A DNA stretch of 64,000 nt from a virus, in the IMG/VR virus record IMGVR_UViG_3300008448_000009, positions 55,282 through 119,281 of that record, one strand, 5' to 3'. Positions 49,579-63,819 of this stretch are shown here, piece by piece (within the stretch, counting starts at the first letter, position 1; the number at the start of each line of letters is the position of its first letter). The translations under genes and the position numbers were made by a program. The notes below the pieces were generated by a model that ran no database searches, had not been told where the DNA came from, and was given only the letters and a program-made list of their open reading frames with translations.

Positions 49579-50463
49579 TTATTTGACCATTACTAAAATT
49601 TCTTTTAGTGCTTTGTCGTTAGTTCTAGCACCTTGCTCTGTAAATAGATAATCACTATTTTCGTGACCTTTGGCAAAGTGGTTAGTATAGTGAGTAATAC
49701 CATTGAATAAACCAAATGCGGTTGCACCACTTTCTTTAAATTCCCACTCAATACATTCTTTCACTTTGTCGATAATAGCTATTGACTGCTTTCCTAAATC
49801 GGCATACTTGGTTAAATCGTAACCGAAAACCGATTGAATATATTTGTCAACTGCTTTTTGGTTGACTTTCACGCCATTTAAACGGATATACATTTCCTCT
49901 AATTTTTCAACTTGAGAAACGCACTTTGTAACATCGGCTAACATTCCCGCAATTTTGCCCTCGTTTCCGTTGGTATTACGAAACTTTGCTTTAAACTCGG
50001 TAAAAGTTTTTTTCATTCCGTTGGTGCAAATAAGTCTATACGTTTCCAAATACAAAGATGTAGCGGTATTTCCGTCATAACCTGTTTGCACGTTTAAAAT
50101 AACGTTGGTTGTATCTTCAACGCCACGCACGTTAGTAAAAGAAACTTTTGCAATAGGGATACTGAAACGAATTTTTTTGCCCTCTTTCATTTCAAAATAG
50201 TTAAGTTTGTCAATATCAAAACCGCTTTGTAAACTTGCATCACAAAACGCCTCGAAAATTGCTTTAGGTTGAGCCGAATTAAAATCTTTGCCCACAATAC
50301 CTAACTGATTTCCGCCCGTTTCTTTAAATAAACCGAAGCCATTTTCGATAGTAAATTTGTCGTCAACGCCCGTATATAACGGCATTTTCACCACGTTAAA
50401 TAATTGATTTTCAATCGTTTGCACCGCTTGGTGACTTTTTGCAATGTTTTCTAAAATGTTCAT
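49579..50463 (-). CDS. DUF932-family phage/plasmid protein
   Basis: A 294-residue protein with the DUF932 features known from phage and plasmid proteins: an N-terminal PLYTGVDD segment, a central IPIAKVSF strand, and GNTATSLYLETYRLICTNGM as the signature, followed by helical FKAKFRNTNGN. Function not established. TACATTTG promoter at 50515-50522, preceded by the TAAACTTAT motif. Confidence 0.72.
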   Translation of the reverse strand: MNILENIAKSHQAVQTIENQLFNVVKMPLYTGVDDKFTIENGFGLFKETGGNQLGIVGKDFNSAQPKAIFEAFCDASLQSGFDIDKLNYFEMKEGKKIRFSIPIAKVSFTNVRGVEDTTNVILNVQTGYDGNTATSLYLETYRLICTNGMKKTFTEFKAKFRNTNGNEGKIAGMLADVTKCVSQVEKLEEMYIRLNGVKVNQKAVDKYIQSVFGYDLTKYADLGKQSIAIIDKVKECIEWEFKESGATAFGLFNGITHYTNHFAKGHENSDYLFTEQGARTNDKALKEILVMVK

Positions 50464-50567
50464 TTTTGTAAGAATTTTAGGTTAAAAATTAAATTTTGTT
50501 CACTTTGAACACTGCAAATGTACATAAGTTTATTTAATATCCTAACTTTTTATATAAATTTATTTGC

Positions 50568-50602
50568 AAAGTTATTAACATCGTATTGTTAATAACTTTT
50601 TA
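50568..50602. terminator. AAGTTATTAACA inverted-repeat hairpin, second copy
   Basis: AAGTTATTAACA-TCGTAT-TGTTAATAACTT. Same stem as at 48124-48154 with a different loop; a likely terminator for the unit coming from the right. Confidence 0.6.
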
Positions 50603-50644
50603 TAGATAAATGTTTGGATATATGAAATTAATTTATTATACTAC

Positions 50645-50790
50645 ACGCGCACCCACACATCACGCGCATACATACGCGCCCACGCGTTTACACACATACG
50701 CGCACTGGTGCATACGTTACGCGCACCCACACGCGCACTCGTTTTCACATACGTGCATACGTGGTACATATATCGCGCGGACCAAACGTA
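50645..50790. repeat. CG/CA-alternating low-complexity block
   Basis: About 145 bases rich in ACGCGC, CACGCG and ATACGCG steps, strongly alternating purine and pyrimidine, in a genome otherwise poor in CG. Non-coding; the plus-strand frame through it is His/Thr/Ala repeats. Confidence 0.75.
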
Positions 50791-50795
50791 TAAGT

Positions 50796-51017
50796 TTATT
50801 TGATATTTGCTTGGTCATCAAGTTCAGCGACTTCAAATTGCACACGTGCCTCGTGGATGAATTGTTCATCGGTCATTGCCAATAAACTATCCTTAACTTC
50901 TTCGTTAAACCAAAATGATAGTTCGTTGGTTTCACTATTCATAAGGTTGTATAAACCTCGTGCCATTGACGTGCCTTGGTTGAGTGATATGGTTCCGACT
51001 TGTCTGATTACTTTCAT
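50796..51017 (-). CDS. Unknown 73-residue early-type protein
   Basis: Alpha/beta start followed by an acidic helix. Leader contains ACTAAATAAACTTAT directly before ATG. Upstream lies one copy of the ACACAAATGTGTACA motif, which may hold the promoter (CACATTTG). No family recognised. Confidence 0.6.
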   Translation of the reverse strand: MKVIRQVGTISLNQGTSMARGLYNLMNSETNELSFWFNEEVKDSLLAMTDEQFIHEARVQFEVAELDDQANIK

Positions 51018-51088
51018 ATAAGTTTATTTAGTTTGATATGCGCTCCCGCGGGGCGGGCTTGACACAAATGTGTACATGGGTTAAAGTA

Positions 51089-51121
51089 AATAAGCCTATC
51101 CATTACAGATAGGCTTATTCG
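51089..51121 (-). terminator. Terminator after the two-pass membrane protein gene
   Basis: AATAAGCCTATC-loop-GATAGGCTTATT hairpin downstream of the stop at 51130. Confidence 0.75.
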
Positions 51122-51129
51122 GGTTGTGT

Positions 51130-51399
51130 TTAGTAGTTGTTTTGCTTTAACGTTACTCGATAATTGGAAACGATATATTGTTTGGGTTGTGGTTGTTTAA
51201 CTTCCACGCAACGATGTTTACGCCAATAGCGTTTGGTACTTCTGCAACTGCTACAACTTTCAAATAGAATAACTATAAGAAACAATACGATAGCTATTGC
51301 GTAAGGTCTAAAGATACCGCTAAAGATAGCCATTACTTTGTTGCCACACCATATAAGGAAAGCAACGATTAAAAACTTGTGCCATTTGATTTTTTTCAT
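51130..51399 (-). CDS. Small membrane protein with Cys-rich basic tail
   Basis: An 89-residue protein from ATG 51399 (the promoter TATCTTTG at 51430-51437 excludes the longer start). Two hydrophobic segments (about 8-24 and 32-48), then CSSCRSTKRYWRKHRC. A membrane role such as superinfection exclusion or host membrane modification is possible; not provable. Confidence 0.65.
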   Translation of the reverse strand: MKKIKWHKFLIVAFLIWCGNKVMAIFSGIFRPYAIAIVLFLIVILFESCSSCRSTKRYWRKHRCVEVKQPQPKQYIVSNYRVTLKQNNY

Positions 51400-51441
51400 A
51401 TTGAATAAATTTAATTGTTTAATTGGGTTCAAAGATACAAA

Positions 51442-51645
51442 TTATTTTTTAATTTGTTCCTCATATTTTTTAACAATTTTTAATGCGTTATTGTATTCTC
51501 GTTTACCGATTAAAACAACTTTCTTTGCTATGGGTTTTTTAGCCACTTTTTTTGTGGGTTTAGCAACCTCAATAGCTTCTTTGATTTTGCTAATAACCTT
51601 AGCCGTTTTGGTATGTTTTTTCGTAGTTAACATTTTAACTGCCAT
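51442..51645 (-). CDS. Small basic Lys/Ala-rich protein
   Basis: A 67-residue protein with KK/AK/PTKK clusters resembling histone-tail or HU-like basic extensions. Likely binds nucleic acid non-specifically. Promoter TATCTTTG at 51670-51677. Confidence 0.65.
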   Translation of the reverse strand: MAVKMLTTKKHTKTAKVISKIKEAIEVAKPTKKVAKKPIAKKVVLIGKREYNNALKIVKKYEEQIKK

Positions 51646-51687
51646 AATATCTAATTTTTAAATGTGATGCAAAGATAGTAATATAAT

Positions 51688-52044
51688 TTAATAACACAAA
51701 TTTTTGTGTCTTTTTAATTCAGCTTTCATAAGTCTTTTTTCTCGTATAAGTTTATCTGAAAACAATCCATTCAACACTTGTTGCAATTCTTTGTTTGGTA
51801 TGGTGCAACAATCAAAGTTTGGGTGAAAATGAATAAACTTATTTAGTTGTTCCCAATAGAAACCAAACTCCAACGTCGGTTCACCGCTTTCAATCGTTTC
51901 TGCCGTACCTTTGTCAAACGCTTGGATATATTCCATTAGCTTGGGGATATCTTTGCTTAAATCGATTAATTGTATCGGGTTGCCATGTAACATTTGATAT
52001 ATTTCGGGCAATAAGTGTGGATAGTTTTCGGTATAATAACCCAT
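51688..52044 (-). CDS. Unknown 118-residue early-type protein
   Basis: Helical protein with several Tyr/His/Pro. Joined to the upstream micro-gene by the linker with TAAACTTAT. No family recognised. Confidence 0.62.
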   Translation of the reverse strand: MGYYTENYPHLLPEIYQMLHGNPIQLIDLSKDIPKLMEYIQAFDKGTAETIESGEPTLEFGFYWEQLNKFIHFHPNFDCCTIPNKELQQVLNGLFSDKLIREKRLMKAELKRHKNLCY

Positions 52045-52050
52045 ATAAGT

Positions 52051-52116
52051 TTATTTGTTTGGTTTAATGATTTTATCAACCATTGCACCGATTAGTCCTT
52101 GAATGTTTGATTTCAT
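52051..52116 (-). CDS. 21-residue micro-gene between two linkers
   Basis: ATG 52116 to TAA 52051-52053, encoding MKSNIQGLIGAMVDKIIKPNK. It has the standard AATAAACTTATATG junction upstream and its stop is the TAA of the next junction. The conserved context on both sides is the only reason to call it; peptide is amphipathic. Confidence 0.45.
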   Translation of the reverse strand: MKSNIQGLIGAMVDKIIKPNK

Positions 52117-52122
52117 ATAAGT

Positions 52123-52263
52123 TTATTCGTTATCTTCTATTAAACAATCTTCACAAGCGTTGCAAGAATAACAATAACTGCAACCGCAACCATTTTCTGT
52201 GTTGCCACAATCACAACAATTAAACATATCATTGCAAGGTCTGTTTGTTCCGTTGGTACACAT
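52123..52263 (-). CDS. 46-residue cysteine-rich peptide
   Basis: Eleven Cys in 46 residues, arranged as CCDCG, CGCSYC and CNACEDC, like a metallothionein or compact zinc-binding peptide. ATG 52263 is preceded by the TAAACTTAT linker and its stop TAA forms the next linker. The cytoplasm is reducing, so metal binding is more likely than disulfides. Missed by length-based gene callers. Confidence 0.65.
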   Translation of the reverse strand: MCTNGTNRPCNDMFNCCDCGNTENGCGCSYCYSCNACEDCLIEDNE

Positions 52264-52278
52264 AGTAAATAAGTTTAT

Positions 52279-52479
52279 TTAGTTTAAATTCATTTCGTAT
52301 TTGTATAGCACTTCTGCCATTTGTTCGGGCGTTTGTTTGTGTTGTGCAAAGGTTATCCAACTTCTATGAATGTTGATTAATTGTTTACAACGTTCATCAA
52401 TCATATTAGCTTTATCGTATTTGGTATCTTTTAGCTTTTTAGCCAAACATAGTCTGATTTCTTTTTCAACGTTTTCCAT
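52279..52479 (-). CDS. Unknown 66-residue helical protein
   Basis: Charged helical protein (EKEIRLCLAKKLKDTKYDK). The linker TAAACTTAT lies before the start. No family recognised. Confidence 0.6.
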   Translation of the reverse strand: MENVEKEIRLCLAKKLKDTKYDKANMIDERCKQLINIHRSWITFAQHKQTPEQMAEVLYKYEMNLN

Positions 52480-52491
52480 AACTAAATAAGT

Positions 52492-52785
52492 TTATTTGGT
52501 TGTTACAAATTTTGAAAAGTCAAGCCAAAATGCTTGGTACATTTGTCCGTTGTTATCTTGAAAAATAACTCTTGGACTGCCACCATAGTTAACCATTAAC
52601 AAAGTAGTTAATTCAGTCCCTATTGGTTGTATTACTTCGGTTGTATTGGTTGTTATATCTAAATCAGCAACCTTGCTAACTGCATACGTTTTAAATTCGG
52701 TAATAGTTGAGCCAACAAAGTTATATGAATTTTGGATAACTTCAACCAATAAGTTGGGCGCAAAAGTTTTTTTAGTTAGTTTCAT
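52492..52785 (-). CDS. Unknown 97-residue beta-rich protein
   Basis: Beta-rich small protein, last part FQDNNGQMYQAFWLDFSKF. Linker with TAAACTTATATG precedes the start, and the stop of the 40-residue gene is inside that linker. Confidence 0.6.
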   Translation of the reverse strand: MKLTKKTFAPNLLVEVIQNSYNFVGSTITEFKTYAVSKVADLDITTNTTEVIQPIGTELTTLLMVNYGGSPRVIFQDNNGQMYQAFWLDFSKFVTTK

Positions 52786-52795
52786 ATAAGTTTAT

Positions 52796-52918
52796 TTAGT
52801 TTACACAAATTGTTGTAAAATCGTTATACGTTTTCAACGTAATTTGTACGAAAGGTTTTTGTTTCAATTCGATTTCAACTTTTTTGTTGTTCTGTTTAAG
52901 ACTGATAAAGTAAGCCAT
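52796..52918 (-). CDS. 40-residue first gene of an early operon
   Basis: ATG 52918, TAA 52796-52798. Peptide rich in Lys/Gln with alternating strands (KKVEIELKQK, VQITLKTY). It directly follows a complete promoter-leader cassette (TATCTTTGCATCG, then TTAAACCAATTAAACTTAT), which strongly supports it. Confidence 0.62.
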   Translation of the reverse strand: MAYFISLKQNNKKVEIELKQKPFVQITLKTYNDFTTICVN

Positions 52919-52946
52919 TGTGATAAGTTTAATTGGTTTAACGATG

Positions 52947-52996
52947 CAAAGATATACAAATAAAATAACCTACCAAACAAATGATAGGTTATTTTC
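52947..52996 (-). promoter_or_regulatory. Fused terminator hairpin and early promoter
   Basis: Stem AATAACCTA/TAGGTTATT (52961-52993) terminates the gene at 53031. Its loop and 3' arm contain TTTGGTAG, the probable -33 region of the next promoter, whose -7 box TATCTTTG is at 52947-52954. Confidence 0.65.
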
Positions 52997-53030
52997 TCAA
53001 AAAATTCACTTATACGAAAAGCAAATAAGT

Positions 53031-53288
53031 TTATCTACTACGTTTGTGTCGTTGGTCAAACTTGTAAAGTAGTTCGATGTAAATATGTTCTCTAATACAA
53101 CCAAAATAGTAGTATTTTATTTCGTGCATTATCTTAACACTAACTGCACAAATATTCAACCCTACGGGCGAAATATGTTGAAAATTGCCTTGACCTTTCA
53201 AAGTCAGTTGCATTTTGTTGTTAATGTTGGCTTGACAAAAGTCAGCAAGTTGTTGCTCTGATGCGTTAAATAATTGTTCGTGTAACAT
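53031..53288 (-). CDS. Unknown 85-residue early-type protein
   Basis: Mixed protein with Cys/His residues (CAVSVKIMHEIKYYYFGC). Promoter TATCTTTG at 53320-53327 with leader AACCAATTAATCTTTAT. No family recognised. Confidence 0.6.
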   Translation of the reverse strand: MLHEQLFNASEQQLADFCQANINNKMQLTLKGQGNFQHISPVGLNICAVSVKIMHEIKYYYFGCIREHIYIELLYKFDQRHKRSR

Positions 53289-53377
53289 TGTGATAAAGAT
53301 TAATTGGTTAATTCTTCTGCAAAGATAAACAAATAATCTTATCCACCAAACATTTTTTCAATTATTTTCAAATAAAC

Positions 53378-53776
53378 TTATTCAAGACTTTCAGCACGTT
53401 CCACAAGTTCCTCATAAGTAAATAAGTTTAGACGTTCTATCCTTTCTTTTAACCTATCTACGTTATTGGGTGTTACTGCAATAGTATCGTGAATACTTTG
53501 CAAGTGTTTCCATTCTTCGTTTGTCAGTATTCCAACAACTTCGGGTTTAAATATTCCCTCTTGTTGTTCTTCGTTTTCAGACAATACATCAATAATATCT
53601 TTGTATATTCCAAACTTTGGTTCAATCATATTCTTTCCAGCTACACACATTTTTTTATCTTTCGTAAGATACTCACAAGTTTGATTATCTTTGTTAAAAC
53701 CACAAGTGCTTGGGTCTTTCAAATAAGGTGCTATTTGTGAGAGTGCAAACTCTTTTATTTCTTCGGGTGTTTTCAT
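53378..53776 (-). CDS. Unknown 132-residue early-type protein
   Basis: Starts MKTPEEIKEFALSQIAPYL. Central Cys pair in CGFNKDNQTCEYL plus CVAGKNM suggests a small metal site or redox pair. Promoter TATCTTTG at 53807-53814, leader ATCAATTAAACTTATAT. No family recognised. Confidence 0.62.
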   Translation of the reverse strand: MKTPEEIKEFALSQIAPYLKDPSTCGFNKDNQTCEYLTKDKKMCVAGKNMIEPKFGIYKDIIDVLSENEEQQEGIFKPEVVGILTNEEWKHLQSIHDTIAVTPNNVDRLKERIERLNLFTYEELVERAESLE

Positions 53777-53873
53777 TTTGATATAAGTTTAATTGATTAT
53801 TGAGTGCAAAGATACAACAATATTTGATATATGCAAATTTATTTCGCGCGTAGACGCAATTGTGTACATAAGG

Positions 53874-54119
53874 TTATGTGATTTTGATATAGTCGCCTTT
53901 GGCTAACCATATTTCCATTTCGCCATAAGTTAAGATACTATCCACTTTGCAAGTCATAACCAAATATTGTTTATATTGTGGGTCTTTGTTTGTTTTAAGG
54001 CTCTTGCGTTCAACAATAAAGTTCAGACTTTCAACAACTTGTTGGTATTGATACAACGCTGATTTGCCTTTAAGTTTGGCAACCAACACACCCTCTTTGG
54101 TTCTAAATTCTAATTCCAT
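53874..54119 (-). CDS. Unknown 81-residue protein
   Basis: Small alpha/beta protein (MELEFRTKEGVLVAKLKGKSALYQYQ). Linker CCAAATAAACTTATATG before the start; last gene of a four-gene operon starting at 54929. Confidence 0.6.
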   Translation of the reverse strand: MELEFRTKEGVLVAKLKGKSALYQYQQVVESLNFIVERKSLKTNKDPQYKQYLVMTCKVDSILTYGEMEIWLAKGDYIKIT

Positions 54120-54125
54120 ATAAGT

Positions 54126-54347
54126 TTATTTGGTTCTCATTTTTACATAGTTTCTAACTCTGTCAGCTATTTCTTCTGATACATCGCCATTCCCAATATT
54201 CGACCTTACTTCGTTGGTTTCACGATTATAAGTGAAACTATAATTAAACCCCGAAAGATTTTTGTCGGGTTGATACGATGCTGAAAGATGCACGATAGGG
54301 TTGTTCTCAAACCTATTGGGTGTAAATGTATATTTGCTCATTACCAT
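54126..54347 (-). CDS. Unknown 73-residue protein
   Basis: Beta-rich, with NPIVHLSASYQPDKN and YSFTYNRETNEV strands. Linker TAAACTTATTCACT before ATG 54347. No family recognised. Confidence 0.6.
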   Translation of the reverse strand: MVMSKYTFTPNRFENNPIVHLSASYQPDKNLSGFNYSFTYNRETNEVRSNIGNGDVSEEIADRVRNYVKMRTK

Positions 54348-54362
54348 AGTGAATAAGTTTAT

Positions 54363-54659
54363 TTAGTCTACAATACCATTACCATAATACAAGTTGAAAT
54401 GTTTGCCTTTGAAGTCGTCAGACTTCAACCATTCTCTATAACGTTCAGTAACGTTTTTGTCGGCAAATTCGTAATAGTGTCCGTTGCAATAACGCAACTG
54501 ATTATTCTTTTTGTAAAACTCCTCAAATAAACTTATTTCGTTTTCAGCGTGTAGGGTTTCACTATGTTTGTATTCGGGTTTAGTATCTTGGTATCTAAAA
54601 CCACTTTCAGTAACAACTGATTTGTTTGCGGGTGCAAAGTAATTTAATGTAACTTCCAT
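54363..54659 (-). CDS. Unknown 98-residue protein
   Basis: Aromatic-rich small protein (RYCNGHYYEFADKNV, HFNLYYGNG). Leader CCAAATAAACTTATATC precedes the start. No family recognised. Confidence 0.6.
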   Translation of the reverse strand: MEVTLNYFAPANKSVVTESGFRYQDTKPEYKHSETLHAENEISLFEEFYKKNNQLRYCNGHYYEFADKNVTERYREWLKSDDFKGKHFNLYYGNGIVD

Positions 54660-54671
54660 TTTGATATAAGT

Positions 54672-54929
54672 TTATTTGGTATTTCTGCTTAATACAAATT
54701 TTTCAATAAAATCCCCATTATCCCATTTGGTTTGTAGTATTGAAAATTCGCCTTTGTTCAATGAATTTAAGTACTCGGTACGTGAGGTTTTAACCCCATT
54801 AAGTTTTCCCGAATAACCAATTTGGTTAAACTCTTTTCGTTGTTGTTCAGATAAAAAATGTAGTGGGTGTCCGAAAATTTCCCTAACTTCGCCCATTGAA
54901 GTTTCAAATTGATAGGTTTCAAGTGCCAT
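54672..54929 (-). CDS. Unknown 85-residue protein, first gene of operon
   Basis: Mixed protein with FGHPLHFLSEQQRKEFNQIGYSG. Promoter TACATTTG at 54959-54966 and leader AACCAATTAAACTTATATC. No family recognised. Confidence 0.6.
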   Translation of the reverse strand: MALETYQFETSMGEVREIFGHPLHFLSEQQRKEFNQIGYSGKLNGVKTSRTEYLNSLNKGEFSILQTKWDNGDFIEKFVLSRNTK

Positions 54930-54991
54930 TTTGATATAAGTTTAATTGGTTTCCGTTGCAAATGTATAACAAATAAATTTAACTACCAAAA

Positions 54992-55309
54992 TTATGAGTA
55001 ATAAATTTTAAAATCTTTTGGGTTGTCAATTGACAACTGCATTAACTCTTTTACACGCTCTTGGGTTAAAGTGCTACCAAATTTTAAGTCGCTCCAAAGT
55101 TGGTTAATAGTAAACGAAAACTCCTTTTTATATTTGATATTTTCTAACCAAACACACTTAATTCCACGTTGTCGATTAAACCCTAATTCATTTTGAATTG
55201 TGTGTAGGTCTTGGTTCAACGTATGGTTATCAATTTCGCCACTTAAATATTGTCTAAACTTATCCAATACAAATTTTCGATACTTGATATAGTTTCTATC
55301 TTCTTTCAT
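54992..55309 (-). CDS. Unknown 105-residue protein
   Basis: Helical, Tyr/Lys-rich. Linker ACTAAATAAACTTATATG joins it to the oxygenase-like gene upstream. No family recognised. Confidence 0.6.
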   Translation of the reverse strand: MKEDRNYIKYRKFVLDKFRQYLSGEIDNHTLNQDLHTIQNELGFNRQRGIKCVWLENIKYKKEFSFTINQLWSDLKFGSTLTQERVKELMQLSIDNPKDFKIYYS

Positions 55310-55319
55310 ATAAGTTTAT

Positions 55320-55922
55320 TTAGTTTGCAAGGCTTGGGTAGTCCATTGGCAACGTTATACGAAACAACACTCTAAAAACATCTTTATCGACTGGCAAACT
55401 CTCGTGTATGAATTGACTATTACCATAATACACTTGGTTAGCATCTAACATAAAGCCTTCATCTAAGTTTATGTGAGAACAATCGCCACCCTCTTTGGCA
55501 TCTGCATCAAAGTTCCCAATCCAACCTTTACAAGCTGAATAGTTAGAAGCTATCAACATTCCACCATTGGGATTTGCATAAGACAATGCGTGTTCTTGGC
55601 TATTGAGTTTAACACCATTTTCACCAACTTTCCAACCATTACCGCCACTATTTCCCCAACTTGATACACTTGGTAAAAAGTTTCCGTCAATGTGTGGTGC
55701 GCCACGTCTTAAGGTCTTGTCTTTCTTGACAAACTTGCCGTGAACAGTTAGATAAGCCGTTCCAATTCGGTTAGGTAGATTTTTAACCATTTGCTCAACT
55801 GCATCGATAAACTCGTTAGGTAGCGTTGATAAATCCGATAGGTCAAAAGGTAGCATTGATACTTCGCCTTTGTGATAAGGTAGTTCAATAGCGTTCAATG
55901 GTTTTGCATAACTTGTTAACAT
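55320..55922 (-). CDS. Possible 2-oxoglutarate/Fe(II) oxygenase-like protein
   Basis: A 200-residue protein. PHIDGNF (His77, Asp79) with a distal His173 in FIHESLP and Arg184 or Arg188 in VFRVLFRIT reproduces the HxD...H...R iron and 2-oxoglutarate pattern within a beta-rich sequence. Such enzymes in phages can modify bases, proteins or small molecules. The call rests on residue spacing, not a full domain match. Promoter TATCTTTG at 55951-55958, leader AACCAATTAAACTTATTT. Confidence 0.5.
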   Translation of the reverse strand: MLTSYAKPLNAIELPYHKGEVSMLPFDLSDLSTLPNEFIDAVEQMVKNLPNRIGTAYLTVHGKFVKKDKTLRRGAPHIDGNFLPSVSSWGNSGGNGWKVGENGVKLNSQEHALSYANPNGGMLIASNYSACKGWIGNFDADAKEGGDCSHINLDEGFMLDANQVYYGNSQFIHESLPVDKDVFRVLFRITLPMDYPSLAN

Positions 55923-55991
55923 AATAAATAAGTTTAATTGGTTTCTAGGACAAAGATAAAAAGAATAAATTTAACTACCAAACATTTTAAC

Positions 55992-56076
55992 AAAAAAAAA
56001 GCGTGGGTTTATCAAGTCCACGCTTTCCAACATTAATGTTTAACCAATTATCACTTACAAAATGTGATTTCTTTAA
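55992..56076 (-). ncRNA. Candidate small RNA with own promoter and terminator
   Basis: TACCTTTG box at 56082-56089 would start a transcript near 56076. A strong terminator (AAAGCGTGG/CCACGCTTT stem then nine T on the minus strand) ends it near 55992, with no gene between. The RNA contains GTAAGTGATAATTGGTT, which can pair with the early leader AACCAATTAAACTTAT in two helices of 9 and 5-6 bp. Confidence 0.5.
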
Positions 56077-56121
56077 GGTTGCAAAGGTACAACATTTATT
56101 CTATATATAACAAAAAAGTTA

Positions 56122-56349
56122 TTAACATTTTTCTAACATCGCTTTTAGTTCCTCGTAACTAAGTTTATTTGTTATATCGTCATTGGTACATATCGCCCAA
56201 ATGCTACCATTGAAAACCAACGGCATATATTCGTTCGTTGTACTTGCCAAACAAAAATAACCTTTAGCTTTGATAAGGTTAACTATTTCAGTACGTTGTT
56301 CATTGGTACAAAAAATACCATTCGGTAAACCATCGCCTTTATTAAACAT
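56122..56349 (-). CDS. Unknown 75-residue early-type protein
   Basis: Alpha/beta with a central Cys and aromatic residues (YFCLASTTNEYMPLVFNG). Linker CAAATAAACTTATATG before ATG. Third gene of an operon. No family recognised. Confidence 0.6.
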   Translation of the reverse strand: MFNKGDGLPNGIFCTNEQRTEIVNLIKAKGYFCLASTTNEYMPLVFNGSIWAICTNDDITNKLSYEELKAMLEKC

Positions 56350-56355
56350 ATAAGT

Positions 56356-56532
56356 TTATTTGATTGGGTTATCTCTACGCCACTTTCTAATTGCATCGGT
56401 CATTGAATAAAAGAAAAATCTTACTCCTTGAATTTCAACAACGCCACTACGAAACTTATAAGCCGTAACGCCATTCCTAACTTTTTTCTCTGCTACGATT
56501 GGTGTAGCATCTAAATACATTGGATAACTCAT
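56356..56532 (-). CDS. Unknown 58-residue protein
   Basis: ATG 56532 overlaps the upstream stop (ATGA). Basic beta-rich peptide (VRNGVTAYKFRSGVVEIQGVRFFFY). Its TAA is part of the next linker. Real gene by context. Confidence 0.58.
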   Translation of the reverse strand: MSYPMYLDATPIVAEKKVRNGVTAYKFRSGVVEIQGVRFFFYSMTDAIRKWRRDNPIK

Positions 56533-56747
56533 AACCTTTTTGCCGTTCTTGTTACCTCAACAATTCTACAATAATTTTCAATTTCATCAAGTGGTATTCT
56601 ACCATACTTAACGCTTGAATAATACCCTTGAAATTCGTAACGCTTAACCCACTCTTTTAGTTTTTGTTCTGCAACTTCGGGACTTGGATAAGTTTCTTCT
56701 CTATCAATAGCAAAGCCATCGGGACTAAAAACTTCAAATTGTGCCAT
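56529..56747 (-). CDS. Unknown 72-residue protein, first gene of operon
   Basis: Small alpha/beta protein (MAQFEVFSPDGFAIDREETY). Promoter TACATTTG at 56777-56784, leader AACCAATTAAACTTATATT. Shape resembles small WGR- or DUF-type folds but no match is claimed. Confidence 0.6.
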   Translation of the reverse strand: MAQFEVFSPDGFAIDREETYPSPEVAEQKLKEWVKRYEFQGYYSSVKYGRIPLDEIENYCRIVEVTRTAKRL

Positions 56748-56788
56748 AAGAATATAAGTTTAATTGGTTAGTGGTGCAAATGTAAAAA

Positions 56789-56830
56789 GAAAAATCCACA
56801 CTACCAAAAATAATGTGGATTTTTTTTTTC
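56789..56830 (-). terminator. Terminator fused to next promoter
   Basis: ATCCACA/TGTGGAT stem with TTTGGTAG in the loop, T run, then the TACATTTG box of the next gene within 5 bases. Confidence 0.7.
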
Positions 56831-56838
56831 ATATAAGT

Positions 56839-57279
56839 TTATTCAGTTATTTCTTTAAAGACAAACCTTTGTGGTGGTGTATCTTCATCTAAATAAACCG
56901 CTTCCAAATAAACTTGTTCGTAAGTCAATCCATTATAACACTTTTCTTGTGTGTTTAAATGAATAGATGCAAACAAACTATCAGTAGCTTCTTTAACACT
57001 CATCATATGTTTAAAGTTCTTGTCAATGGTCTGCAACTGCCCATAAGGGTTTTCGCCATTGTAACGTTTTCCAGCTTCGATGTCTTGGGTATGGTTGCAA
57101 AAAGTTGATGCGTGATAACCTATTACACTATCATCTGCAACACGTTTGTACGCTACAACGTATTGAAATGGTTTTTGTTGGTTTTCTTCAAAGTTTTTAC
57201 CCATTGCTTCCATTAACGCACCAACAACTTTTTTGGTTTCTTCGGGTGTTGGTCTTTGGTTTTCTTGTTCTGTATTCAT
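56839..57279 (-). CDS. Unknown 146-residue early-type protein
   Basis: Mixed protein with an N-terminal Pro/Glu-rich helix and later strands (YVVAYKRVADDSVIGYHAST). No family recognised. Linker TAAACTTATACGTT before ATG 57279 couples it to the lipoprotein gene upstream. Confidence 0.6.
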   Translation of the reverse strand: MNTEQENQRPTPEETKKVVGALMEAMGKNFEENQQKPFQYVVAYKRVADDSVIGYHASTFCNHTQDIEAGKRYNGENPYGQLQTIDKNFKHMMSVKEATDSLFASIHLNTQEKCYNGLTYEQVYLEAVYLDEDTPPQRFVFKEITE

Positions 57280-57290
57280 AACGTATAAGT

Positions 57291-57668
57291 TTATTTAATT
57301 AAATGTATTAATGTATCTATTCCACTTGCAACAACAACTCCGTTTACTTTGAATGTAATGTAACCCACTACAACCACGTTAGGCGCACCATAATTGTTTG
57401 AATTGTCTATGGTATAACCATAACCGATTGCGGTTATTGAATCGCCTTTATTTACGTCTAAACTTATATACGATTGTCGTATGTAAGTAGTCGTGTTTTC
57501 TTTGGCATTGTAATACCAAAATTCGGGTGAATTGCCCTCGATAAAAACTTCAAGTCTTTTGGTTTCTTCTACGATAGTAGTTTCTTCTTTGGTGCAAGAA
57601 CTTAATAACCCGATAAGTAATAATAAACAAACTAATACGATTGCTTTGATAACTAATAATTTTTTCAT
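57291..57668 (-). CDS. Predicted lipoprotein
   Basis: A 125-residue protein with a lipoprotein signal: basic start, hydrophobic stretch, lipobox LLSSC with Cys25, followed by TKEE, an acidic region of the kind linked to surface export in Bacteroidota. Mature part is beta-rich. Early expression (TATCTTTG at 57699-57706 plus full leader) suggests a role at the cell envelope such as blocking superinfection; that is inference. Confidence 0.72.
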   Translation of the reverse strand: MKKLLVIKAIVLVCLLLLIGLLSSCTKEETTIVEETKRLEVFIEGNSPEFWYYNAKENTTTYIRQSYISLDVNKGDSITAIGYGYTIDNSNNYGAPNVVVVGYITFKVNGVVVASGIDTLIHLIK

Positions 57669-57738
57669 TTTGATATAAGTTTAATTGGTTTAACGATGCA
57701 AAGATATAAACAAATTTATTAACTACCAAATATTTTAA

Positions 57739-57985
57739 TAAAAAAAAAAGAGAGTGGATGCACACACTCTCTTTTTGGCTAGCTATTGTTTACCACAATT
57801 ATGTGGTCTCAGTCTTATGTTAATTGATAGAGTATGAATAATAGGTCGAGTTGACCACCTAAAGGTTTCTCTACTTAACAACTATTGAATAAACTTATTC
57901 AAGTTGCATTAACAAGTCCTACATTGCCGACAAGCAAGGAGTCTATATGCAAACCTTTAGGGCGAAAAACACAACATGATATATT
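57739..57985 (-). ncRNA. Candidate structured RNA with several hairpins and terminator
   Basis: No gene in about 250 bases. An 11-bp outer stem pairs 57858-57868 with 57951-57961 (CCTAAAGGTTT). Inside is the palindrome TTGAATAAACTTATTCAA (57885-57902). Downstream hairpins are GGTCGAGTTGACC (57844-57856) and ACCACAATTATGTGGT (57792-57807), then a strong terminator GAGAGTG/CACTCTC with T run (57739-57776). The 5' end is not defined. Confidence 0.5.
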
Positions 57986-58005
57986 TTGATTGAAAACGAA
58001 TAAGT

Positions 58006-58524
58006 TTATTCATCATCGCTTTGATTGTTATAGTAATTTACAGACTTCACTTCTTTACGCAAAAATGGTTTTAAATCTTTAATGATTTTAATTTTTGCTT
58101 GGGTTGGAAATTTATGCACCAACAATTTTTCAAGCACCTCTAAAATAGGTGTGTTGGTTGTTGTATCATCAAATTTGAAACGTGCATCAATGCTCCAATC
58201 TTTTGGTACACTGCCGTGATTACGTTCACTAAGTTTGGCTCGTTTTAAACCACGTTCAATACGAATGATAGGTGTTTGATACACATCAACTTCATCATCG
58301 TACCAATCGATTTCATCAAAACCAACACGCATTGATAATAGTTTTTTGGTTTTGATGGATTTCCAAAACTGCTCAACTTCGTTTCTAAGTTTATCTGAAT
58401 TTGCATATAGTTGTGATTTTCTACTACTATAAGCATAATCGCTACTTACTTCAACACTAATAGTGTTATCGCTATTTCTGCCTAAGTTTATTTGTAGACA
58501 ATCTTTAGTGAAATTTGAATTCAT
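58006..58524 (-). CDS. Unknown 172-residue early-type protein
   Basis: Beta-rich first half, then helical end. No recognised family. Promoter TATCTTTG at 58554-58561, but without the usual AACCAATTAAAC leader. Stop is followed by the GAATAAACTTATTC motif. Confidence 0.62.
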   Translation of the reverse strand: MNSNFTKDCLQINLGRNSDNTISVEVSSDYAYSSRKSQLYANSDKLRNEVEQFWKSIKTKKLLSMRVGFDEIDWYDDEVDVYQTPIIRIERGLKRAKLSERNHGSVPKDWSIDARFKFDDTTTNTPILEVLEKLLVHKFPTQAKIKIIKDLKPFLRKEVKSVNYYNNQSDDE

Positions 58525-58572
58525 AATATTATTGTATTAATTGTTTCCGAGTGCAAAGATATACAAAGATTT

Positions 58573-58779
58573 TTAATATGCAAACTTTTTAAAGAAAAAA
58601 TTTTCTTGTGGTTCTACTATTGGACTTTCAGTACGTTCAACGTGGTTAGTTAATCGTTTCCACTTGTTTAAAAAATAATTACCCAACGCTACATCTTCTT
58701 CTTTTAGCGTTTCTTTGGCAAAGATTTCTTTCACTCTGCTTTCGCACATTTTAGCTTCTAATTCTTTTGAAATTTCCAT
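58573..58779 (-). CDS. Unknown 68-residue protein
   Basis: Helical and acidic N-terminus (EISKELEAKMCESRVKEIF). Promoter TACATTTG at 58809-58816, leader AACCCAAATAAACTTAAC. No family recognised. Confidence 0.6.
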   Translation of the reverse strand: MEISKELEAKMCESRVKEIFAKETLKEEDVALGNYFLNKWKRLTNHVERTESPIVEPQENFFFKKFAY

Positions 58780-58849
58780 AATGGTTAAGTTTATTTGGGT
58801 TTATGGTGCAAATGTAAAACAAATAAATTAAACTACCAAACATTTTAAC

Positions 58850-58891
58850 AAAAAAAAAAATAAGGTACTAACTCGTCAGTCAGTACCCTAT
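58850..58891 (-). terminator. Terminator after the 129-residue gene
   Basis: GGTACT-loop-AGTACC hairpin followed by 11 T on the minus strand. Confidence 0.8.
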
Positions 58892-58913
58892 CATTGAAAG
58901 CATATAAACTTAT

Positions 58914-59303
58914 TTAAAATTCACGTTGCTCTAACTCTATTGTTATCTCATCTAATTCCAATCTGAAAAAGTCAGTTAGGATATATGGAATAAGTTTAGT
59001 TAGATACTCTTTGTAAACTTCATAATTCTGTACTTTGCTTTTTACAAAATAGTAGCTCGTTTCGTAGTTGCCACTAAAATAGCTATGGTTAGTTTCTTCG
59101 TGTAATTTATAACCTTGAATAAGGTTATTTACTTTTACTCGATAATTACCAAACGAAATACTGGTGCTTATTCTTGTTTTGGTGTTGTGGTGGAAAGAAA
59201 CTCTTAACTTCTTGGTTTCTTTTAGCAACGATAAGTCAGGGTCTGCAAACATTGTGAAACTGCTCATCATTGGTGTTGGTACTTCTACTAAATTAACATT
59301 CAT
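58914..59303 (-). CDS. Unknown 129-residue early-type protein
   Basis: ATG 59303 chosen because the full leader TTAAACCAATTAAACTTAT lies directly before it; the longer frame would translate the leader. Beta-rich centre and acidic helical end. Promoter TATCTTTG at 59333-59340. Confidence 0.62.
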   Translation of the reverse strand: MNVNLVEVPTPMMSSFTMFADPDLSLLKETKKLRVSFHHNTKTRISTSISFGNYRVKVNNLIQGYKLHEETNHSYFSGNYETSYYFVKSKVQNYEVYKEYLTKLIPYILTDFFRLELDEITIELEQREF

Positions 59304-59370
59304 TTGATATAAGTTTAATTGGTTTAACGATGCAAAGATAATCAAATAAATTTAACTACCAAACTTTTTT

Positions 59371-59511
59371 TTAAATAATTTCAGTAGGGTCTAACACTAC
59401 TTCGCCCTCGATAGTAAAGTCAGCGCCACAATCGTCACAACATAACATTGTATCAGGAAAATCAAAATCTTCACGTATATTGGTTCCTATGCAAATTGGA
59501 CAAGTTTCCAT
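59371..59511 (-). CDS. 46-residue zinc-finger-like peptide
   Basis: CPIC and CCDDCG pairs separated by 18 residues form a small zinc ribbon; the C-terminus is acidic. Linker CTAAATAAACTTATATG precedes the start at 59511. Last gene of its operon before the next promoter cassette. Confidence 0.62.
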   Translation of the reverse strand: METCPICIGTNIREDFDFPDTMLCCDDCGADFTIEGEVVLDPTEII

Positions 59512-59521
59512 ATAAGTTTAT

Positions 59522-59785
59522 TTAGTTTGTATAATATTGAAATGGTTTTTGTTCGCCCTCGTGAGTGTACCAAATTGTATGCAACACTTTTTTATTTTTA
59601 ACTTGACCCTCTAACGTAACGCTATCGGGATTAAGTTTATCGGGTTGACTAATTAGTTCACGATAAAACATAAGTGCCAACTCATAATCAACAAAAGCAA
59701 TATTGATTTTAAGGTTTTTGGTTCTTACAATAAACTTATCGTATATTCCCAAATTTTCCGATGGTTTCATTTTTTTGGTTAACAT
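59522..59785 (-). CDS. Unknown 87-residue protein
   Basis: Basic N-terminus and beta-rich body (KFIVRTKNLKINIAFVDY). Linker AAATAAACTTATATG before the start. No family recognised. Confidence 0.6.
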   Translation of the reverse strand: MLTKKMKPSENLGIYDKFIVRTKNLKINIAFVDYELALMFYRELISQPDKLNPDSVTLEGQVKNKKVLHTIWYTHEGEQKPFQYYTN

Positions 59786-59791
59786 ATAAGT

Positions 59792-60136
59792 TTATTTAAT
59801 TTGGTTAAACTCTAATATTCCTACTATACAACTATTGGTATAAAACGAATTGCGTATGCAAGTTTTGTCAAACGCATAAATTTCGTGCCACGTATTGTCG
59901 TGTCTATACTTAACAAGGTACAACTTCATAAACTGCTTAAATGGAATAATCATTCCCATAAGCATATAATTACCTTTGCCACTATTGGCTTGGATATTAT
60001 GAAATAATGTATCTTTGTCTAAACGTGAAAGTTTTTGTCCGTTGGCAAGTGCTTGGAAATACTTATAAGCCATTGACCCTAAAATACTATCCAAAGTGCC
60101 ACGTTCATTAAATGGATAAGGTTGTGTGATTTTCAT
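59792..60136 (-). CDS. Unknown 114-residue protein, first gene of operon
   Basis: Mixed protein (MKITQPYPFNERGTLDSILG). Promoter TATATTTG at 60167-60174, leader AACCAATTAAACTTATATC. No family recognised. Confidence 0.6.
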   Translation of the reverse strand: MKITQPYPFNERGTLDSILGSMAYKYFQALANGQKLSRLDKDTLFHNIQANSGKGNYMLMGMIIPFKQFMKLYLVKYRHDNTWHEIYAFDKTCIRNSFYTNSCIVGILEFNQIK

Positions 60137-60221
60137 TGTGATATAAGTTTAATTGGTTTTCGAGTGCAAATATATACAAACATTTGAATAAAAAAAATTT
60201 TTTTTAAACTTTTTTTTGTTT

Positions 60222-60250
60222 TATCTTTGTACCCAATTAAATAAACTTAT
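60222..60250 (+). promoter_or_regulatory. Plus-strand early promoter and leader
   Basis: TATCTTTG at 60222-60229 followed by CCCAATTAAATAAACTTAT and ATG. Shows that the leader motif belongs to the gene start and not to one DNA strand. Confidence 0.65.
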
Positions 60251-60460
60251 ATGGTTACACTACACCCTACGGACTATGTGATATACGATAGAGCCAACGA
60301 CCACGTTATACAATTTGAAAGCGATGGTGCTATTGTTATCTTTGGCGACAAAGCTGAAGCTGAAGAAGATTGTCGAGGAAACGAAGAAGTTATCCCTTGC
60401 ACCGAACTTCCGTTGCACCACCAAGAAACTCTTAAACAACAAATAGCAAAACAATTATGA
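60251..60460 (+). CDS. Unknown 69-residue acidic protein
   Basis: One of only two plus-strand genes in the early region. Beta start (YVIYDRANDHVIQFESDGAIVIFGD), acidic middle, helical end. Stop overlaps the next start (ATGA). Function unknown. Confidence 0.65.
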   Translation: MVTLHPTDYVIYDRANDHVIQFESDGAIVIFGDKAEAEEDCRGNEEVIPCTELPLHHQETLKQQIAKQL

Positions 60461-60597
60461 AAAAGTTTACCCCTGTTATCCTGTCTTTACTCCTTGTCTT
60501 TATGATGGGCTACGATTTTAAAAACTTTTGGTTATACGTACTGATACTTCTTATCTACATTACCAATTATTCTAAAGTCAAAAAACTCTTTGAATAA
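60457..60597 (+). CDS. 46-residue two-pass membrane protein
   Basis: ATG 60457 overlaps the previous TGA. Two hydrophobic segments (residues about 5-17 and 23-37). Likely inner membrane; could partner the acidic protein encoded before it. Confidence 0.6.
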   Translation: MKKFTPVILSLLLVFMMGYDFKNFWLYVLILLIYITNYSKVKKLFE

Positions 60598-60732
60598 GCC
60601 ACGATAATTTTTTCTGTGCCTTATCTTATATCTTTTGGATTATAATTCAACTGGCGGCCTCTGTGAAGCTCAAAGCCACAAAAGTGTACACTGGTGTCTG
60701 TCGCCACCTGTGGCGTAAACGCACATAACACA

Positions 60733-60764
60733 AAAGGGCTACCGTCATCTGGTAGCCCTGTTTG
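60733..60764. terminator. Terminator-like hairpin
   Basis: AAAAGGGCTACC-loop-GGTAGCCC stem 3' of the tRNA-like element when read on the minus strand; may end that transcript or the plus-strand gene pair. Confidence 0.65.
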
Positions 60765-60799
60765 CTGGAAACAATTAAACAGCTTATAAAACCTATTTG

Positions 60800-60868
60800 T
60801 AATGCCGACTGGATTCGAACCAGTGTTTCTACTCAACGTAGCGTCCTCGACCGCTAGACGACAGCATC
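60800..60868 (-). tRNA. tRNA-like element with shortened anticodon arm
   Basis: Acceptor GATGCTG pairs with CGGCATT (7 bp with G-U), D-arm GTCT/GGAC with a loop containing GG, and a perfect T-arm ACTGG-TTCGAAT-CCAGT. Between D-arm and T-arm only 18 nt remain (CTAC-GTTGA-GTAG then AAAC), 4-5 nt fewer than a canonical tRNA. No anticodon can be assigned with U33 in place. No CCA is encoded. It is a degenerate tRNA, a tRNA mimic, or a tRNA with a local sequence error. Confidence 0.55.
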
Positions 60869-61229
60869 AACCTGAACTGGCAGCTTCCCTGTTCAGGGCG
60901 CATAGCGTTTGCAACCGCTACACTTGTTCAACTTCTAGGTGACACTAACAAGATGCCTCTTGTACAGGTAGATATTACTTTACTCCGAACCAATCATCGA
61001 AACCCGTTCTTAAACAACTCTAGTTGTTGAACCATTTAAACTTATGCGTTAGACCTACCGAACCTACTGGAAACTCAATCTAACTGTGGACACAAAAGTG
61101 TACATAAGTTTATGTAATAACCCAATCCCTTCCCTATTGGTATGTAACTTGCGTTTATATTATCACATATTTTCTGTTGCAAAGATAAGGTGAATTTTTC
61201 AATCCACCAAATCTTTTACAACTTTTTTT

Positions 61230-61925
61230 TTAACTTTCTGCAACAATCAAAGTTTCGTACTCAACTTGTGTTAAGTTTCGAGGTGTTGTCAAAGGTTCAA
61301 ATTTGCCTTGTGTTTTAATCATAATGCAATCACCTTGTCTTAATATCTTTTCGATATTGCCTTGTGGTACATTGGTTGTAATAGTCCAAGCAATACACTC
61401 AATAGCGTTTAGTTCCTTGTAACCCTCTCGTCTATCATACCAAGTGTTATCTCTATTGGTGTTAAATACGCTTTGTGGTTCAATCCAAATAAGGTATTCT
61501 CTATCGGTTGAAGTATCTTTGCACTTCACATAGAAACTATCTTCCATTTTTTGACTACCACTTAACCCTTGACTAAACACTTCACCTTTCACTCGATAAA
61601 GTTCGTAAGTATCATCATATTCAAATGTATGTAACTCACCATTTTCATTTACCCAAGTTGTACTTTTGGTTAGTGTTTTTCTATCCAATAAGATAGGGTT
61701 CACTTCGGAAGTAAGTCTTTCCAACCCCAACGCACCTATTCCAATTCTACGTTGTTCCAAGTTTGGTAATTGTGCAATATCGGAAAAAGTTGCTGGTACA
61801 ATATCATTCCAAAAGTCAGCCAAAGGACTTAATACTTCGGGACATACATCACCATACTTTAATCTTGCAATTTTGCAACCCAAGTCGTAATCAAATGCTA
61901 CGTTGTTTAATACTAATTTTGCCAT
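61230..61925 (-). CDS. Unknown 231-residue early-type protein
   Basis: A mixed protein, N-terminus helical with several Cys, C-terminus beta-rich. Contains several Trp and DREYLIWIEPQSVF. No recognised family. Promoter TACATTTG at 61958-61965. Its leader AACCAATTAAAACAATT differs from the common form by lacking CTTAT. Confidence 0.62.
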   Translation of the reverse strand: MAKLVLNNVAFDYDLGCKIARLKYGDVCPEVLSPLADFWNDIVPATFSDIAQLPNLEQRRIGIGALGLERLTSEVNPILLDRKTLTKSTTWVNENGELHTFEYDDTYELYRVKGEVFSQGLSGSQKMEDSFYVKCKDTSTDREYLIWIEPQSVFNTNRDNTWYDRREGYKELNAIECIAWTITTNVPQGNIEKILRQGDCIMIKTQGKFEPLTTPRNLTQVEYETLIVAES

Positions 61926-61957
61926 TGTTTAATTGTTTTAATTGGTTTAATCTTTTG

Positions 61958-62008
61958 CAAATGTAAATATAAAAAAATAATCTACCAAATAAATGATAGA
62001 TTATTTTT
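61958..62008 (-). promoter_or_regulatory. Fused terminator hairpin and early promoter
   Basis: Stem AATAATCTA/TAGATTATT with TTTGGTAG in the loop and 3' arm, T run, then TACATTTG (61958-61965). Ends the gene at 62028 and starts the one at 61925. Confidence 0.65.
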
Positions 62009-62027
62009 AAATTATTTTTAGATAAGT

Positions 62028-62672
62028 TTATTCACCCTCTTTGTAAACATAACTTCTGAAAAACAAAGTAACTTTTAAAGTGTTACCTTTGGTTTCAATT
62101 TCAGCACCATTGTCATTGGTATTCCAATTTTCATCTTGTCCGTCAATCAACTCACCCAATACTTCGGGTTCGTATTTATCCCAATAATCACTTATCTTTT
62201 TAGCTATGCTTTCTTCGAGTTCTTCGTGTCGGTCAGTTTTGATAAAATCAACTTTGTAGTTGAAATTTGCATCATTACCCCAATCAACATTTATGTTGCT
62301 AACGAATAAGTTTATGTAATTTATTTCTTCTTCGGTCATTTCAATAAATTCATCAAACTCCTCAAATTCTTCGTATTCTTCGGTTGAAGATTTTGAATAA
62401 TCAAATCCGTCTTGTTCATCGTTAAGATAAACATAAACATTCCCACGTTCACCCATATAGTGTCCGTCAGAATTTACATAAAATTCTACATTGTCATAGA
62501 TTTTGTTTTCAAAGTAATCTTCAATTTCTTTGCACTCGATTAACTCACCCTCTTTATCTAAAATGTTAAGGTTAGTTTCGTTCATACTATCGCCACCACA
62601 ATCGAACTCATAGTCGATATGGTCTACTCCGTTTTCTTTCCATAATTGGATAATTTTTTCTTTTTCTGACAT
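62028..62672 (-). CDS. Unknown 214-residue very acidic protein
   Basis: Many Asp/Glu clusters (YEEFEEFDEF) and net strongly negative charge, as seen in DNA-mimic anti-restriction proteins, but composition alone does not prove that. Beta strands in the first part. Stop is followed by TAAACTTATC and a terminator. ATG 62672 is preceded by the linker AAATAAACTTATG. Confidence 0.6.
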   Translation of the reverse strand: MSEKEKIIQLWKENGVDHIDYEFDCGGDSMNETNLNILDKEGELIECKEIEDYFENKIYDNVEFYVNSDGHYMGERGNVYVYLNDEQDGFDYSKSSTEEYEEFEEFDEFIEMTEEEINYINLFVSNINVDWGNDANFNYKVDFIKTDRHEELEESIAKKISDYWDKYEPEVLGELIDGQDENWNTNDNGAEIETKGNTLKVTLFFRSYVYKEGE

Positions 62673-62686
62673 AAGTTTATTTAATT

Positions 62687-63103
62687 TTAATTGGTTACTT
62701 GTTCTTCTTCTTGTTTAAGTTTATCCAATAAGTCGGTTGCGAATTGTGTCGCTATTGGATTTTCAACATCTTTAACTCCGTTATGTATCCAACTCGGAAG
62801 TGTTAAATGTTTCAGATAATCTTCAAGTGTTGGTACAAACTTCATTCTAAAATCTTCTGCAACGTGCAACATCGCAATATCAATCGTATCAACTCGTTTT
62901 CCATTTGAATTGATAAGGTTGTACCCAAAAATTTTAGGTATAATGTTGTAACAAAACCATACGTTATGCGTTACAAGTCGTGATGAATTGTTATTCATAC
63001 ACGCTTTCGGACTATCAATAAGTTCGTGTATTGCTAAATAATCTTCTACTTTGCCACCCCAACGCTTTACTGAACTTTGAGAGTGAATTTGTGCGTTTGC
63101 CAT
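62687..63103 (-). CDS. Unknown 138-residue early-type protein
   Basis: Starts MANAQIHSQSSVKRWGGKVEDYLAIHELIDSPK. The pattern, with an HVAEDFRMKFVPT segment, resembles proteins that accompany phage/plasmid DUF-type genes but I recognise no named family. Promoter TACATTTG at 63129-63136. Confidence 0.6.
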   Translation of the reverse strand: MANAQIHSQSSVKRWGGKVEDYLAIHELIDSPKACMNNNSSRLVTHNVWFCYNIIPKIFGYNLINSNGKRVDTIDIAMLHVAEDFRMKFVPTLEDYLKHLTLPSWIHNGVKDVENPIATQFATDLLDKLKQEEEQVTN

Positions 63104-63128
63104 AATATAATTGTTTTAATTGGTTCGG

Positions 63129-63178
63129 CAAATGTATAAATAAAAAAATAATCTACCAAACAAATGATAGATTATTTT
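63129..63178 (-). promoter_or_regulatory. Fused terminator hairpin and early promoter
   Basis: Nearly the same sequence as at 61958-62008: AATAATCTA/TAGATTATT stem enclosing TTTGGTAG, then TACATTTG. Confidence 0.65.
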
Positions 63179-63202
63179 TAAATTATTTTTGGATAAGTTT
63201 AT

Positions 63203-63469
63203 TTAGTCCCAAACTCTTGAAACTGATTGACTAAATGGATTGTACTCCACTTGTTGTCCCATTACCCAATTACCTTGTTCCACTTGCAAACCTCGATGTT
63301 CATTTGAGAAATCGCCATTGGGTTTTTCGTGTCGTAAGATAGTAGTTTCTTTCACTTTGATTGGTGCGAAATCTTTAACGATGTTATCGTTATCCATATC
63401 GAATTTACCAACCAACGTATGTTGGTGTATTCCCTCACCTAACAAAATTGTTTTTCTTGTTTGTAACAT
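63203..63469 (-). CDS. Unknown 88-residue early-type protein
   Basis: ATG 63469 chosen; the alternative at 63502 lies within the promoter box TAGATTTG (63500-63507). Beta-rich basic protein. No family recognised. Confidence 0.6.
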   Translation of the reverse strand: MLQTRKTILLGEGIHQHTLVGKFDMDNDNIVKDFAPIKVKETTILRHEKPNGDFSNEHRGLQVEQGNWVMGQQVEYNPFSQSVSRVWD

Positions 63470-63534
63470 AAGATTATTGTTTAATTGATTATTATTTTGC
63501 AAATCTACGATATTAATTTATATCTACCAAATTT

Positions 63535-63813
63535 TTATTTAACTTTTTTTGAAACTGCTATTTGTTCTTGGCTAAACTTATCACTTGCATATAAAGTTAT
63601 TTGTTGTCTATTGTTATAAGCTGGGTGTTGTCTATGCCTGAATTGGTGAATAACCTTATCTGCTTTTTTATAGCTGCCCATATATTGCCACGCCTCACCA
63701 TTGTGAAGAGCAACTTTGGGTTCTTCAATCCCCTCGTTAATTGGGTGTTGCCCCAATCGTTCCCACATATCAATCCATTCGGGAGTTTCTGCTTCTATTA
63801 ATACAAATTCCAT
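63535..63813 (-). CDS. Unknown 92-residue protein
   Basis: Small alpha/beta protein with Trp/His-rich middle (QHPINEGIEEPKVALHNGEAWQYMG is its central region, given here in two parts: QHPINEGIEE and HNGEAWQYMG). Linker GAATAAACTTATATG before ATG 63813 ties it to the gene at the window edge. Confidence 0.6.
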   Translation of the reverse strand: MEFVLIEAETPEWIDMWERLGQHPINEGIEEPKVALHNGEAWQYMGSYKKADKVIHQFRHRQHPAYNNRQQITLYASDKFSQEQIAVSKKVK

Positions 63814-63819
63814 ATAAGT

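Follow-up and report, generated by a model that had tools for sequence, protein, structure and literature searches.

The window (the whole 64,000-nucleotide stretch of DNA analysed, which forms the right-hand portion of a virus fragment of 119 kb from IMG/VR) encodes on its minus strand a small RNA whose gene, judged by its promoter, terminator and neighbourhood, is very probably real. The 5' half of this predicted RNA is complementary to the leader common to many early mRNAs of the same phage, and we consider it likely that the RNA represses these leaders in trans as an antisense RNA, by occluding their start codons. The sequence itself shows the promoter, the terminator, the lack of an open reading frame, the above-chance complementarity and the conservation of the unit in a sister phage; transcription, the duplex in vivo, the direction of the effect and its timing are inferred. 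Regulation in trans is what we infer as the best explanation of the complementarity.

The phage of the window is a large virus infecting Bacteroidota bacteria. Its longer open reading frames include T4-type gp17-like, gp20-like and gp23-like proteins, which from their sequences we take to be the terminase, portal and capsid proteins. Between 50 and 64 kb of the window, almost all reading frames lie on the minus strand and the genes are short and of early type, the label "early" being drawn from the host-type promoters and the small gene size. The promoters of this region match the Bacteroidota consensus TTTG-N19-21-TANNTTTG, which corresponds to the published -33/-7 elements TTTG/TANNTTTG (PMC6847099), the -7 box spanning -12 to -5 (PMC9723704). 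Translation initiation in Bacteroidota proceeds without Shine-Dalgarno sequences and needs an unstructured, A-rich stretch 5' of the AUG, and in Flavobacterium, A residues at positions -3, -6, -12 and -13 favour it, as does the absence of structure (PMC6847099). A short 5' leader, (G)TTAAACCAATTAAACTTAT..ATG, opens many early-region mRNAs; its 16-mer AACCAATTAAACTTAT is present in seven exact copies in the window, and the same kind of leader is present in related phages. A second motif, AAATAAACTTAT, is located directly 5' of the ATG of many operon-internal early genes (window 50000-64000, minus strand); its counterpart throughout L231 is AATAAATTTAT, the motif differing between phages as a set, as if evolving in concert. 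At four minus-strand positions of the window (52954, 56784, 61965 and 63136), the -33 element TTTGGTAG sits within the terminator-like hairpin of the preceding unit, with terminator and next promoter overlapping.

The small-RNA gene has a promoter of its own, TTTG-N21-TACCTTTG (56114-56082, minus strand), made up of the -33 element TTTG (56111..56114, matching the consensus of PMC6847099 and conserved in L309, the copy of the unit in a sister phage) and the -7 box TACCTTTG (56082..56089; TACATTTG in L309). The spacer of 21 nt is one base above the usual 19-20 nt, and a spacer of this length is also found at a leader-bearing promoter of a relative (L222, position 10257). Because the -7 box occupies -12 to -5, transcription is predicted to start at 56077, and the predicted RNA of about 80-88 nt (55990..56077, minus strand, from the promoter and terminator positions) reads TTAAAGAAATCACATTTTGTAAGTGATAATTGGTTAAACATTAATGTTGG before a strong intrinsic terminator, recognized by folding and sequence as the stem-loop AAAGCGTGGACTTGATAAACCCACGCTTT followed by a T-run (55998..56026, minus strand). 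Between promoter and terminator, no minus-strand open reading frame of at least 30 amino acids was found; a 20-codon ATG frame is present in the small RNA, and is unlikely to be a gene because it runs through the terminator. The initial annotation, which had placed a promoter box and a strong terminator about 85 bases apart around a stretch free of reading frames, is borne out on these points. Rfam searches of 55990-56089 gave no family over the gathering score, only sub-threshold matches.

Folding predicts a weak 5' hairpin in the small RNA, AUCAC-N9-GUGAU (56050..56068, minus strand), whose loop contains the UUUUG predicted to pair with the leader at its start-codon end. Two adjoining segments on the same strand carry the predicted contacts: CAUUUUG (56058..56064), which by duplex prediction is the complement of CAAAAUG, including the start codon, in three early leaders, and GUAAGUGAUAAUUGGUU (56042..56058), which by folding and duplex prediction is the complement of the leader core AACCAAUUAAACUUAU. 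The AAUUGGUUAAAC part of the latter is the predicted single-stranded seed, being wholly or nearly wholly unpaired in both the minimum-free-energy and the centroid structures.

A 20-mer scan of IMG/VR identified one other carrier of the unit (L309, in the 362-kb contig G047), the sister phage. Its transcript is 100% identical; its promoter is TTTG-N21-TACATTTG, with one base changed in the -7 box, and its T-run is one base shorter. The neighbouring genes differ on both sides (a 107-aa gene replaces the 75-aa gene upstream, and a 173-aa gene replaces the 200-aa gene downstream), both being non-homologous to the genes that they replace. The conserved block starts at the -33 element and ends at the terminator, with one substitution and one T-run indel in about 112 nt, whereas some 12 differences are present over the 76 nt of the adjacent promoter/leader segment (Fisher P about 1e-4 in a comparison with 1 in about 112 nt). 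An identical transcript between unrelated genes argues that the unit is real and is kept as a unit, and the earlier proposal of an independent small-RNA gene is thus well supported. Other identical tracts between the two sister phages reach 289 nt, so the identity of the small RNA may reflect recent exchange and not strong constraint; as proof of purifying selection it is weakened accordingly. With or without exchange, the small RNA moves or persists as a unit.

In this sole further carrier, the small RNA is identical, the leader core is the same as in the window phage, and no compensatory change is visible. Relatives gathered via the downstream 200-aa gene, the major capsid protein and early genes carry the same promoter type, several of them with the same CCAATTAAA leader, and yielded no homologous small RNA. 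Covariance-model and pattern scans of the phages with a similar leader (G001, G016, G014 and G048) and of others, whose records are possibly fragments, detected no homolog either; since phages with similar leaders have no detectable homolog, the small RNA appears not to be required for the leader system. Similarity searches of the phage collection gave nothing useful, a 15-mer scan of IMG/VR gave chance matches only, the exact long leader pattern matched no other contig, and one bacterial-genome scan contained neither the small RNA nor a sequence relative. Two loci that matched the hairpin-plus-seed pattern (L311 and L312) proved to be unrelated.

The pairing first proposed, of GTAAGTGATAATTGGTT with AACCAATTAAACTTAT of the leader as helices of 9 bp and 5-6 bp, forms as claimed and constitutes the middle two of four helices in an interrupted duplex. 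The complementarity is longer than that: CATTTTG pairs with CAAAATG, start codon included, and GTT (+1 to +3) is paired as well. With the best leader, that of the gene at 57291-57668, helices of 3, 9, 5 and 7 bp take in GUUAAACCAAUUAAACUUAUAUCAAAAUG, starting at the predicted +1 and ending with the G of the AUG, with a duplex energy of -20.2 to -20.8 kcal/mol depending on the fragment. The match is thus coextensive with the leader as transcribed (predicted +1 to AUG), and the promoter sequence lies outside it.

The best predicted target is accordingly the 5' untranslated region and AUG of this gene (57666..57694, minus strand, -20.2 kcal/mol). Further predicted targets, all on the minus strand and with energies in kcal/mol, are leader copies at 52923..52938 (-18.6), 54936..54951 (-17.8), 56754..56769 (-17.7), 59309..59324 (-19.5), 60143..60158 (-15.7) and, for the next gene downstream of the small RNA, 55928..55943 (-14.4), together with the leader variant AATCAATTAAACTTAT at 53783..53798 (-16.3) and the divergent leader AACCAATTAATCTTTA at 53294..53309 (-15.1). 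The pairing energies of eight promoter-linked leaders and of the start at 60136 range from -14.4 to -20.2 kcal/mol, those of weaker leader variants from about -8 to -14 kcal/mol. In both phages, the leader mRNAs pair at -14 to -20 kcal/mol, as opposed to about -3 to -9 kcal/mol for other promoter-driven starts. The initial annotation had the leader shared by about a dozen early mRNAs; the sharing holds, but the figure includes weak variants, and there are seven exact 16-mers and about nine starts at -14 kcal/mol or better.

The complementarity to the target initiation regions is above chance. The energy of the small RNA against the consensus leader was reached by 4 of 20,000 dinucleotide shuffles, and the score of its local alignment to the 29-nt leader by none of 20,000; elsewhere in the genome that score is reached only at two other early promoter/leader regions. 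Ranked by duplex energy among 9,643 non-cis 52-nt windows of the 64 kb, the small RNA comes out best, and in the same ranking over 40 kb of the sister phage it stands just behind one coding site. When the whole unit was aligned with promoter, leader and coding sequence, 144 of 5,000 shuffles (about 3%) reached the score, a weaker and less focused test because the AT-rich flanks dilute the signal. About 1% of random genome 33-mers pair with the small RNA at -15.9 kcal/mol or better, so energy alone does not single out targets.

In the proposed mechanism, the host sigma-A-type holoenzyme would transcribe the small RNA from its own promoter and the intrinsic terminator would stop it at about 85 nt; because the promoter type is the same, the RNA and the early mRNAs would be made at roughly the same time. 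The exposed AAUUGGUU would make the first contact with AACCAAUU of the common 5' leader, after which the weak 5' hairpin would open and pairing would extend to the AUG. On about nine early mRNAs, the duplex would then cover the region where translation is initiated, lowering their translation, with RNase III decay of the paired mRNAs perhaps adding to the effect. Inhibition is the expected outcome of pairing at the leader because initiation depends on the unstructured A-rich region upstream of the AUG (PMC6847099); the duplex would take away both the A residues and the unstructured state that favour it. As the small RNA and its targets accumulate together, early expression would be damped, the repression setting a ceiling on early protein synthesis or helping to end it.

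The segment could instead be a copy, decayed or recent, of an early leader in inverted orientation, lacking any regulatory role of its own, with a promoter-like box and a terminator that are there incidentally; we regard this as unlikely. Its plus strand reads GTTTAACCAATTATCACTTACAAAATG and scores about as high against the leader as does a genuine divergent one. The terminator would serve the upstream operon as well, and lies directly before the next promoter, an arrangement found at other early units here too. The plus strand is leader-like with an ATG followed by TGA, and it lacks the TATCTTTG promoter of the real promoter-linked leaders, so that only the transcribed part is mirrored; moreover, a promoter and a terminator delimit the unit, which is intact in the sister phage amid other genes. 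The idea that the mirrored leader might serve an early gene on the plus strand was rejected, because TGA directly follows the ATG and there is no promoter. An origin as an inverted leader copy, of which the initial annotation had warned, is possible and is compatible with function, and the limitation of the mirroring to the transcribed part fits selection for RNA pairing, although it does not prove it.

A real small RNA might have its main role elsewhere, on a host mRNA or protein target or as a sponge, for example, in which case the leader complementarity would be left over from the way the RNA arose. Conservation extends to the terminator stem, the AACATTAATGTT palindrome and the hairpin, many random phage windows pair comparably by energy, and phage small RNAs with host targets are known, such as lambda PreS on dnaN (PMC12197685); a match running precisely from +1 to the AUG and the outranking of other starts by the leaders would not be expected from such a role, to which we give a slightly lower probability than to the inert copy. 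Activation or stabilization of the early mRNAs by the same pairing, for example by protection of their 5' ends against nucleases, is improbable: pairing does begin at the predicted +1, which would make the 5' end double-stranded, but for the best targets the start codon lies within the duplex, and the AU-rich leaders appear to have no evident inhibitory structure to be opened. Antisense repression of the early leaders is the reading that we retain.

Other apparently non-coding RNAs are encoded nearby and in relatives. A promoter-driven structured RNA is located just upstream of a tRNA gene (window 61187-60869, minus strand; L221 about 2060-1790, minus strand), and Rfam found no family in it besides the tRNA, which itself (window 60800-60868, minus strand) scores 46 bits and was missed by ARAGORN. 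The structured RNA has a potential helix TAAACTTATG/CATAAGTTTA (61112-61103 with 61046-61037) that in G001 (L221) is TAACGTATG/CATACGTTA, both sides having changed together. A candidate second antisense RNA (CATAAGTTTAAATGGTT, minus strand 61045-61030) was set aside, as it lies inside this structured RNA, where CATAAGTTTA can pair with the upstream TAAACTTATG and both sides are changed in concert in L221. A small hairpin, GTACACTTTTGTGTC, recurs in non-coding stretches (window 61103-61088 and near 60690, minus strand; L222 about 4940; L231 about 12440). Short RNAs that lack an evident open reading frame are driven by many early-type promoters in related phages and share a motif like GAGAGUAGACUCCGAC or GGAGGUAUACUCC, in several copies per genome (L224 6124-10706, plus strand, and 6657, minus strand; L240 13559, 9184 and 7879, minus strand, and 14030, plus strand; several in L252), and Rfam gave no match to these.

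In known phages, an antisense RNA that controls the phage's own genes mostly has a single gene as its target. Antisense and trans-acting phage RNAs are already known (OOP, sar, aQ and PreS; PMC12197685). Lambda OOP (against cII), P22 sar (against ant) and lambda aQ resemble the candidate in being small, phage-encoded and complementary to phage mRNA, with sar blocking translation initiation and OOP leading to RNase III decay (PMC12197685), but each is encoded opposite its single target, whereas the RNA of the window phage is encoded away from its targets and has interrupted complementarity to a leader common to about nine mRNAs. Lambda PreS is closer in having its own transcription unit, partial complementarity and a location in trans, but is Hfq-dependent and acts on host dnaN (PMC12197685), whereas the predicted targets here are the phage's own early leaders. 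Trans-encoded small RNAs of Bacteroidota hosts (for example Bacteroides thetaiotaomicron, PMC7366714) share the layout of a phylum-type promoter and small RNA; the window RNA differs in being phage-encoded, with no sequence relative in the bacterial-genome scan and no Rfam family. In the literature searched, no case was found of one RNA directed at a leader shared by many of a phage's own early mRNAs.

The nearest functional likeness is to RegA of T4, which covers the initiation regions of about 30 mRNAs (PMC3014915): like RegA, the candidate would be a single phage factor that occludes the AU-rich initiation region of many early mRNAs, at the AUG or immediately 5' of it. The likeness is in function only, RegA being a protein and the candidate an RNA acting by base pairing, and no match to RegA (PF01818) over the cut-off was found in nine records (G000, G047 and seven others, all possibly incomplete). 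There is perhaps an even chance that this T4-like Bacteroidota phage controls its own early-gene regulon with one antisense RNA, an equivalent of RegA made of RNA, which pairs with the shared leader all the way from the first nucleotide to the start codon. Because the RNA and leader are a short pair and the predicted contacts are exact, compensatory mutations can test the pairing directly. If the reading is true, the phage uses the common 5' ends of its early mRNAs as an address for their collective control, and such control would occur in a phylum that starts translation without Shine-Dalgarno pairing.
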